64,000 nt of DNA, from NCBI RefSeq assembly GCF_017853185.1, contig NZ_JAFMJZ010000002.1, positions 1-64,000 of the forward strand. The letters run 5' to 3'. Of the stretch, positions 15,983 through 20,728 are shown piece by piece. Origin of the DNA: Mycolicibacterium sp. Its GTDB lineage: Bacteria; Actinomycetota; Actinomycetes; Mycobacteriales; Mycobacteriaceae. A program made the translations under genes and the position numbers. The number at the start of each line of letters is the position of its first letter. The first letter of the stretch is position 1. The notes below the pieces were generated by a model. That model was not told the origin of the DNA, made no database searches, and saw only the letters and a program-made list of their open reading frames with translations.

Positions 15983-17665
15983 TTAGTCGAGATAGTCGCG
16001 CAGCACCTGGGAGCGGCTCGGGTGGCGCAGCTTCGACATGGTCTTGGACTCGATCTGCCGGATCCGCTCACGGGTGACCCCGTAGACCTGGCCGATCTCG
16101 TCGAGGGTGCGCGGCTGACCGTCGGTCAGGCCGAACCGCAGCCGCACCACGCCGGCCTCGCGCTCGGACAGCGTCTCGAGCACCGACTGCAACTGATCCT
16201 GCAGCAGTGTGAAGGACACCGCGTCGACGGCCACGACCGCCTCGGAGTCCTCGATGAAGTCGCCGAGCTGGCTGTCGCCCTCGTCGCCGATGGTCTGGTC
16301 CAGCGAGATCGGCTCCCGGGCGTACTGCTGGATCTCCAGCACCTTCTCCGGGGTGATGTCCATCTCCTTGGCGAGCTCCTCCGGAGTGGCCTCGCGGCCG
16401 AGATCCTGGAGCAGCTCACGCTGGATGCGGCCGAGTTTGTTGATGACCTCGACCATGTGCACCGGGATACGGATGGTGCGGGCCTGGTCGGCCATCGCGC
16501 GGGTGATGGCCTGGCGGATCCACCAGGTGGCGTAGGTGGAGAACTTGTAGCCCTTGGTGTAGTCGAACTTCTCCACCGCGCGGATCAGGCCGAGGTTGCC
16601 TTCCTGAATGAGGTCCAGGAAGGCCATACCGCGACCGGTGTAGCGCTTGGCCAACGACACCACCAGACGCAGGTTGGCCTCAAGCAGATGGTTCTTGGCG
16701 CGGTCGCCGTCACGGCAGATCCACTGCATGTCGCGGCGCTGCTGCACCGGCAGCTTGGTGCCGCCCTCGGCCAGTTCGCCCATCTTCTGGGTCGCGTAGA
16801 GCCCGGCCTCGATGCGCTTGGCCAGCTCCACCTCCTCCTCGGCATTGAGCAGCGCGACCTTGCCGATCTGCTTGAGGTAGGCCCGCACCGAGTCGGCAGA
16901 GGCCGTCAGTTCGGCGTCCTTGCGGGCCTGCCGCAGTGCCTCGGATTCCTCCTCGTCCCAGACGAAGTCGCCGGAAGCCTTGTCCTTGTCGGACGGCTCC
17001 GGCAGTTCCTCGTCCTCGGCGGCCTCACCGGCGGGCGCGGCCTCGGCGGCGGCCTCCCCGGCCACCTCCTCGAGGTCCTCGAGGTCGATCACCTCGGCGT
17101 CGATCTCGGGCTCGAGTTCGTCGAGGACGACCTCTTCGTCCTTGCCGGCCGGAGCCTCAGCGGCCGCGGTGGCCTTCTTGGCCCGGCCGCGCGGCGCCTT
17201 CACCGGCTCGGACGTGGCGGGGGCGGCCTTGGCGGCTTTGGCCGGTGCGGCCTTGGCGACCTTTGCCGGTGCCTTGGCGGGGGCAGCTTTGGCGGCTTTC
17301 GCCGGTGCGGCTTTCGCTGCCGCCTTGGCCGGTGCTGCCTTGGCAGCCTTGGCCGGTGCCGCCTTGGCGGGGGCCTTGGCGGCCTTGGCCGGTGCGGCTT
17401 TGGCCGCTGCCTTGGCCGGTGCTGCCTTGGCAGCCTTGGCGGGTGCGGCCTTGGCCGGTGCTTTGGTGGTCTTGGCGGGTGTGGCTTTGGCCGCTGCCTT
17501 GGCGGGTGCCGCCTTGGCGGGCGCCTTCGCGGCCTTCGCCGGTGCCGCCTTCGCAGACGCCTTGGCCGCCTTCGCGGGTTCGGCCGCAGCCTTCTTGGCG
17601 GGGGTCTTGGTGGCGGTGCGCTTCACCGGCTTGTCGGTTGCCGGGCTGGCTTTGGTCGCTGCCAC
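15983..17665 (-). CDS. sigA: primary sigma factor SigA with Lys-Ala-Pro N-terminal tract
   Basis: The housekeeping sigma factor. I use the GTG at 17665 because SigA orthologues begin AATKAS...TATD and an AAAGGG ribosome site precedes it, giving 560 residues; the ATG at 17683 would add six. Residues ~40-150 are near-continuous KAAPAKA-type repeats, then an acidic stretch ([24 protein letters not shown]), then canonical regions: 1.2 ([21 protein letters not shown]), 2 ([27 protein letters not shown]), 3 and 4 ([21 protein letters not shown]). From region 1.2 onward it is essentially the mycobacterial consensus; the length excess over M. tuberculosis SigA (528) comes from the repeat tract. Confidence 0.97.
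17220..17560. repeat. coding tandem repeat in the sigA 5' part (KAAPAKA tract)
   Basis: On the minus strand about a dozen and a half degenerate 15-24 bp units encode [14 protein letters not shown]-type sequence; the plus strand reads as repeats like GCGGCCTTGGCCGGTGC. The reading frame is kept throughout. The boundaries given are approximate. Confidence 0.85.
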
Positions 17666-17815
17666 GTACACCCTTTCGGTCATGCAGGCTCTGCGAGTTG
17701 GCGCGGGCCTGCCTCGCCGAGAGCGTTAGCTATGTGGAATGTCGGCGCGATCTGCAGGGATACTCACCGCTGTCTTCGGCGGCCGCCGCTGCCCATTGTA
17801 ACGACTCGCAGGGGG

Positions 17816-19584: not shown

Positions 19585-20235
19585 TCAGCAGGTTCCGTTG
19601 TGGATCTTGGCCAGCAGGGCCGAATCGGCCGGCTCGTTGGCCCCCGGGCGCAGGCCGGACAACACCGCGGAGATGTCGTCGCTGTTGGCCAGGGAGTTGA
19701 AGTCGCTGCCGATCACCAGATCGACCGAATCGTCCTTGCGGTCGTCCTGGTAGAGCTCGACGCAGGGGGCGACCAGCCAGGCGGCCGCCGCGCCGTGCTT
19801 GCCGCCCTCGCCGAACCTGATCTGGCCCTGGCAGGACAGCCGGGCGCCGGCGTAGACCGGGTCGTTGGCGGCAGTCGGAGCGGCGAAGCCCAGATCGCGC
19901 AGCGCCCCGGCGACCTCGCCGGCCTGCCCGCCCTGGCCGCTGGCGTTGAGAACCCGGATCTTGGTTTCGGCCAGCTTGGCCGGGGACACATCGACCAGTG
20001 CCGAACCCGACACCCGCTCACCCAATCGGGGAGCGCCGGAATCGGCCGGCGCCGGCGGCGCCGGGCATGCCGCCGCCTCGCGGACGTCGACCGGCCGGGT
20101 CAGCACCAGCGCCCACACCAGAGCAGTGAGCGCGAAAAGGACGGTCACCGCGATGATTCCGGGCCGATAGTTGCGACGCCGGAACGGATTCCCGTCTTTG
20201 TCGTAGGCTGTGCCTTCGGTGATGTGAGCGACCAC
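19585..20235 (-). CDS. cei: cell envelope integrity protein Cei, LytR C-terminal domain
   Basis: A 216-residue envelope protein (Rv2700-like) with a GTG start at 20235 (VVAHITEGTAYDKDGNPFRRRN), preferred because it restores the family start and length; the track adds seven residues. There is one membrane span (GIIAVTVLFALTALVWALVL, about residues 26-46) and an external LytR_C domain (KIRVLNASGQGGQAGEVAGALRDLGFAAP). Four external cysteines (AAACPAP, LSCQGQ, APCVEL, NGTC) probably form disulfides. The family is described as needed for cell-envelope integrity and virulence. Divergent from the DUF4193 gene. Confidence 0.88.
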   Translation of the reverse strand: MVAHITEGTAYDKDGNPFRRRNYRPGIIAVTVLFALTALVWALVLTRPVDVREAAACPAPPAPADSGAPRLGERVSGSALVDVSPAKLAETKIRVLNASGQGGQAGEVAGALRDLGFAAPTAANDPVYAGARLSCQGQIRFGEGGKHGAAAAWLVAPCVELYQDDRKDDSVDLVIGSDFNSLANSDDISAVLSGLRPGANEPADSALLAKIHNGTC

Positions 20236-20290
20236 GAGTGCACTGTAGTGGGCCACACCACACCGCGGTTCAACACCGCGAACGGCCAGA

Positions 20291-20330
20291 ATCGGCGACT
20301 GTGATACAAATCACAGTCCGATTCGCCGAT
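20291..20330. promoter_or_regulatory. nested palindrome holding a perfect CRP-type site
   Basis: TGTGATACAAATCACA (20300-20315) matches TGTGA-N6-TCACA exactly, the motif of mycobacterial CRP (Rv3676-type). It is enclosed by a second inverted repeat, ATCGGCGA (20291-20298) and TCGCCGAT (20323-20330). It lies between divergent cei and DUF4193 genes, about 110 bp before the latter. Confidence 0.75.
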
Positions 20331-20425
20331 TCCCGGGCAGGAATGGTTTTGCTCATGCGTTCGACGCTGATACAAAGCATCGCGCATGTTTGACGGCGCG
20401 ACGACTACGACGAAGGGGAGTGGCA

Positions 20426-20728
20426 ATGGCTACTGATTACGACGCTCCACGTCGTACCGAGACCGATGAGGTTGCCGAGGATTCGCTCGAGGAACTCACC
20501 GCGCGCCGTAACGAGGCGCAGTCCGCCGTCGTCGACGTCGACGAAACCGAGTCAGCCGAATCGTTCGAGCTGCCCGGTGCGGACCTCTCCGGCGAGGAAC
20601 TCTCGGTCCGGGTGGTCCCGAAGCAGGCCGACGAATTCACCTGTTCGAGCTGTTTCCTGGTGCATCACCGCAGCCGGCTCGCCAGTGAGAAGAACGGCCA
20701 GATGATCTGCACCGACTGCGCCGCGTGA
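20426..20728 (+). CDS. DUF4193 small acidic zinc-ribbon protein
   Basis: A 100-residue DUF4193 protein (Rv2699c-like) starting at ATG 20426 with AAGGGGAG upstream. It has an acidic, probably disordered first part (DEVAEDSLEELTARR), then VVPKQADEFTCSSCFLVHHRSRLAS and ICTDCAA, a four-cysteine zinc ribbon (CSSC...CTDC). Related proteins resemble RbpA-size transcription-associated factors in layout only; the function is unknown. A CRP-type site and a second TGATACAAA copy lie upstream. Confidence 0.85.
   Translation: MATDYDAPRRTETDEVAEDSLEELTARRNEAQSAVVDVDETESAESFELPGADLSGEELSVRVVPKQADEFTCSSCFLVHHRSRLASEKNGQMICTDCAA

Follow-up and report, generated by a model that had tools for sequence, protein, structure and literature searches.

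A CRP operator conserved across mycobacteria lies at distances consistent with class I activation of the predicted divergent promoters of cei and a DUF4193 gene

The locus considered here lies within a window of 64,000 nucleotides (positions 1 to 64,000 of contig NZ_JAFMJZ010000002.1; assembly GCF_017853185.1) from a Mycolicibacterium species, and unless a contig is named, all coordinates are those of this window. The genes form a series already known from mycobacteria: sigA, a ROK-family kinase gene (ppgK-like), an inositol-monophosphatase gene (suhB-like), cei, a DUF4193 gene, and a DUF3093 gene; cei and the DUF4193 gene are divergent, and a CRP site is found between them. The product of cei (19585 to 20235, minus strand) is a 216-aa orthologue of Mycobacterium tuberculosis Rv2700 with a LytR_C domain (Pfam PF13399; E = 5.6e-15), a protein on which the envelope integrity, antibiotic tolerance, and virulence of M. 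tuberculosis depend (review, PMC7831098). The DUF4193 gene (20426 to 20728, plus strand) encodes a 100-aa orthologue of Rv2699c with a CxxC...CxxC arrangement (Pfam PF13834; E = 3.6e-46). A second DUF4193 gene, 53 to 72% identical, was observed in many mycobacteria (nine of the genomes compared), and the genome of the window shows only one. At its N terminus, the nearby SigA (15983 to 17683, minus strand) is extended by a long series of KAAPAK-type repeats, and the long open reading frames antisense to the gene are a shadow of it.

The CRP operator, TGTGATACAAATCACA (20300 to 20315; centre, 20307.5), matches the TGTGA-N6-TCACA palindrome exactly, as a first-pass annotation of this DNA had stated, and is the only exact match in the window, where 0.05 would be expected from dinucleotide shuffling. 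The symmetry extends 3 bp past TGTGA/TCACA, such that the full inner dyad, GACTGTGATACAAATCACAGTC (20297 to 20318; GACTGTGA...TCACAGTC), is perfect. The inner six bases of the site differ between species.

The genome encodes a full-length, near-identical orthologue of M. tuberculosis CRP (on contig C1), which aligns without gaps over all 224 residues with the latter protein (Rv3676; 3h3u; E = 7e-139) and has an intact HTH. A second CRP-family protein of 233 aa is encoded on contig C197 (10641 to 11353), and a one-mismatch CRP-like site overlaps the end of its gene. The orthologous CRP site of M. tuberculosis, located between Rv2699c and Rv2700, is already published: it is the second strongest of 191 CRP ChIP-seq peaks, with 0 mismatches (PMC4117774, Table 1), and its centre is at −62.5 relative to the start of Rv2699c and at −130.5 relative to that of Rv2700 (PMC4117774). 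Because that site is strongly bound in vivo, CRP would be expected to bind at 20300 to 20315 in the present organism as well.

Actinobacterial promoters recognized by ECF sigma factors (SigE/SigH, sigma-R type) have a consensus consisting of a GGGAAC-like −35 element, a spacer of about 17 bp, and a CGTT −10 element. Between the operator and the DUF4193 gene, we found a comparable pair on the plus strand, namely, a −35-like element that reads GGGCAG here and GGGCAC in nearly all relatives (20335 to 20340) and, 17 bp past it, a −10-like CGTT (20358 to 20361). The predicted DUF4193 transcription start site (TSS) at 20370 (plus strand) was transferred via the conserved spacing from M. tuberculosis (Rv2699c TSS 3015010; CBS 3015072.5), and relative to it, the GGGCAC and CGTT elements stand at −35 and −12. 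Both are part of a conserved 44-bp promoter/start block, GGGCACGAATCrTTTGG..ATGCGTTCGACGCTGGTACAAAGC (20335 to 20378, plus strand), with 36 of 44 identities in the window and 32 to 44 of 44 in mycobacteria. The core GGG[AC]AC-N17-CGTT occurs exactly upstream of 122 of 140 DUF4193 orthologues from several actinobacterial families, versus 0.03% of shuffles, and this promoter has a wider distribution than the CRP site. The spacer, the CGTT element, and the position of the TSS fit the SigE/SigH-type form; the −35 element is GGGCAC in mycobacteria and GGGCAG in the window, against the GGGAAC of Nocardiaceae. The DUF4193 promoter looks ECF-sigma dependent, with the sigma dependence being putative. 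A vegetative −10 element (TACAAA) is not favored, since in M. tuberculosis the mapped TSS is the base immediately preceding TACAAA. Region-4_2 matches number 12 in the genome, of which 10 are above the curated cutoff. Elsewhere in the genome, GGGMAC-N17-CGTT has 22 matches, versus 8 for the reversed control; hence, the core promoter is meaningful only in context and was rejected as a unique genomic signature. The GGGCAG of the window, set against the near-invariant GGGCAC, raises the possibility that DUF4193 expression in this species is weaker or more activator dependent.

In class I CRP promoters of Escherichia coli (lac type), operator and RNA polymerase occupy the same face of the helix, with the operator centre near −61.5 or an additional turn upstream. 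On the DUF4193 side, the transferred TSS places the operator centre at −62.5, close to the first of these positions. This distance almost never shifts (62.5 bp, rarely 61.5 bp). Among the named genomes, which were fetched by protein similarity, the CRP site is present in all mycobacterial loci with 0 or 1 mismatch, and its centre is 27.5 bp from the 44-bp block in every one of them, the window included; in a second set of loci, the distance from the centre to the core is 27.5 bp in 35 of 38 and 26.5 bp in the other 3. Both sets were chosen without regard to spacing. A wider search for the CRP site followed by the 19-nt spacing to the −35 element recovered 366 of 397 Mycobacterium genomes (at most 3 mismatches), versus a handful with a reversed control pattern. 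The 19-nt spacer is conserved in length but not in sequence.

On the other side of the operator, the cei promoter has a −10 element, TACAGT (20242 to 20247, minus strand), six bases from the GTG start codon (20233 to 20235, minus strand), and TAnnnT-N5-8-GTG is found in all 143 of the mycobacterial loci compared. The layout, with a TAnnnT element and the start codon at the TSS, is that of a SigA-type leaderless promoter, and the cei promoter is by its layout predicted to be leaderless, with the TSS at the G of GTG (20235) and the CRP centre at −72.5. Across the 143 loci, the spacing between the CRP centre and the cei TSS falls into two states, 61.5 to 63.5 bp in 71 and 71.5 to 74.5 bp in 62, with none at 64.5 to 70.5 bp. 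Under class I activation, one would expect such a one-turn jump without intermediates, and in 133 of 143 loci the operator position fits −61.5 or the next turn upstream. The remaining 10 have other distances, from 80.5 to 299.5 bp, and M. tuberculosis, with cei at −130.5, is an exception to class I spacing on this side. When the two states were placed on a tree built from coding sequences only, at least 14 switches between them were required, and at least 11 once branches with support below 80 were collapsed. As a control, the leader from the DUF4193 TSS to the ATG varies freely and smoothly from 36 to 75 nt.

Outside the mycobacteria, the CRP site, the spacing, and the DUF4193 promoter are all retained in four genomes from a second genus of the family, and approximately so in one genome of yet another genus. 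By eye, a cei promoter of the mycobacterial type was not seen in the upstream stretches of the four genomes from the first of these genera. In Nocardia and relatives, the ECF element has its canonical form, GGGAACAA-N15-CGTT, and is found further upstream than in mycobacteria, 150 to 170 bp from the DUF4193 gene, with a conserved CGCTATTGTCTGGCGGCC nearby. In eight Pseudonocardiales loci, a different conserved motif, TGAGACC-N3-GTCAC, is situated just upstream of the same ECF-type DUF4193 promoter; another regulator possibly stands in the place of CRP upstream of DUF4193 in these relatives.

The reading that we favor, and to which we assign a good though not overwhelming probability, is that one CRP operator is common to two divergent promoters, is in a class I position for both, and likely activates them. 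A CRP dimer on the operator would be centred 62.5 bp upstream of the start of DUF4193, at an ECF-like promoter of the form GGGCAC-N17-CGTT, and the same dimer would be centred 72.5 bp upstream of the cei start, which is predicted to be leaderless and of the SigA type (in roughly half of the relatives, this distance is 61.5 bp). At both promoters, CRP and RNA polymerase would share one face of the DNA, with CRP at a canonical class I position, and CRP most likely would recruit polymerase to either promoter via the C-terminal domain of the alpha subunit. The cAMP status of the cell would thereby be coupled to cei, and hence to envelope integrity, and to DUF4193. The predicted operator distance and helix face are those of E. 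coli class I promoters; the difference is that a single operator would here serve two divergent promoters, one of the ECF type and one leaderless and of the SigA type, with putative CRP dependence. Mycobacterial CRP is also less cAMP dependent (PMC4117774). In the form proposed earlier, CRP was to control cei and/or DUF4193. The orthologous CRP, the bound site in M. tuberculosis, the conservation, and the spacing all speak for this proposal, which can be sharpened to control of probably both genes. What carries it is the sequence and its conservation, the fixed or phased spacing, and the CRP orthologue, along with the in vivo binding at the M. tuberculosis orthologue known from the literature. 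More tentatively, at somewhat below an even chance, one dimer on one operator would act in class I fashion on two back-to-back promoters with different sigma factors, with a phasing on both sides selected through mycobacterial history, and would constitute a cAMP-gated link of envelope integrity to stress expression. Against a two-promoter class I arrangement, the start positions are comparative inferences and are predicted for this organism, and the −35 element GGGCAG of the window is off consensus.

The main counterevidence comes from M. tuberculosis, namely, from gene expression and from the atypical distance of the CRP site to cei. The 29 CRP-bound genes with altered expression in the crp mutant under both conditions include neither Rv2699c nor Rv2700 (PMC4117774, Table 2), and in that species regulation is confined to a subset of the sites that CRP binds (PMC4117774). 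During starvation, cAMP and CRP binding both fall (PMC4117774) while Rv2699c rises 10.4-fold (PMC3898074), which does not fit CRP as the main activator of Rv2699c. As for spacing, −130.5 to Rv2700 is outside the usual class I positions, from which 10 of 143 loci deviate.

These expression data would suit a CRP that binds strongly but has little effect, as an architectural or buffering element or a weak modulator (possibly a repressor), with a SigE/SigH-type ECF sigma factor driving DUF4193. Such a driver would also be consistent with the tabulation of Rv2699c beside sigB, Rv2744c, and clgR, which are SigE targets. Pure architecture, however, leaves unexplained both the near-invariant spacing to DUF4193 and the one-turn quantization of the spacing to cei, and we regard this explanation as unlikely. 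We also consider it rather improbable that CRP acts on the DUF4193 promoter alone and that the distribution of cei distances around 61.5 and 72.5 bp reflects shared ancestry. This version draws on the stricter spacing on the DUF4193 side, on the other genus that retains the CRP site and its spacing without an evident cei promoter of the mycobacterial type, and on the position of cei in M. tuberculosis; it is countered by the repeated change from one cei spacing to the other, with no species at intermediate distances. Class I action at both promoters remains our preferred interpretation.

Among characterized systems, the closest is the Rv2699c/Rv2700 site itself, which shares the genes, the divergent layout, the perfect consensus, and the 62.5 bp to the DUF4193 start; it differs in the cei distance (−130.5 there versus −72.5 here), and no consistent effect is reported for it (PMC4117774). 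The promoter types and helical phasing of that site are absent from the main-text discussion (PMC4117774), and we found no description of a two-sided class I geometry, an ECF-type promoter, or helical phasing at this locus in the open literature searched. At the Mycobacterium smegmatis cydAB promoter, the activating CRP sites lie upstream of −50 (e.g., CBS2 at −58 to −73; PMC7739888), but there two CRP sites serve one promoter (PMC7739888), whereas here one site would serve two promoters. The spacing comparison gives a specific prediction, that class I activation at both promoters would be lost with half-turn insertions and kept with full-turn insertions. If true, cAMP signaling would be tied to Cei and to DUF4193, a conserved actinobacterial protein of unknown function. 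The comparison also offers a general way to tell working CRP sites from silent ones, by asking whether evolution shifts the spacing by whole helical turns.

The operator is also surrounded by a larger palindrome, for which a second regulator or a cruciform had been suggested in the first-pass annotation. The outer inverted arms, GAATCGGCGA (20289 to 20298) and TCGCCGATTC (20323 to 20332), are indeed present, though they are 10 bp long and not 8 bp as first described; they form a perfect pair placed asymmetrically around the CRP site. The predicted single-strand hairpin is strong (−19.3 kcal/mol; z, −5.75), and arms of at least 10 bp arise in shuffled flanks with a chance of about 8 in 10,000. 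Nevertheless, the arms are found in this genome only: none of about 100 other mycobacterial loci that share the CRP site has them, and the longest flank arm there is typically 3 to 5 bp (9 bp in one locus). One such pair among about 100 loci would not be very surprising by chance, and the 19-nt spacer is, as noted, conserved in length and not in sequence. Since the predicted DUF4193 start is downstream of the palindrome, the latter would not be part of the DUF4193 mRNA. We therefore rejected the outer palindrome, well though it folds, as an ancestral operator or cruciform; a conserved role is unlikely, a regulatory function of either kind has a very low probability, and the arms are probably incidental. 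The short sequence TGATACAAA occurs at 20302 and again at 20368 (to 20376), as had been noted, but the latter occurrence is not a partial second CRP site: it represents, within the 44-bp block, the form that the conserved GCTGGTACAAAGC of the DUF4193 start takes in the window, and it resembles the CRP core by coincidence, through the variable inner bases of the site in this genome.

That the TGTGA-N6-TCACA at 20300 to 20315 is a mere chance match, for which the low per-window expectation and the seven exact sites of the whole 3.58-Mb assembly are the relevant figures, deserves almost no credence and is already refuted in practice by the fixed-spacing conservation across hundreds of genomes and the ChIP-seq binding of the orthologous M. 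tuberculosis site. The other exact sites of the assembly, which have no bearing on the one discussed here, are beside rpf-like, mobA-like, dxr-like, and ferritin-like genes, among others. Two of them are 23 bp apart on contig C235 (6049 to 6087), upstream of a mobA-like gene and near two rpf-like genes, and a one-mismatch CRP site is found at the start of an rpf gene.
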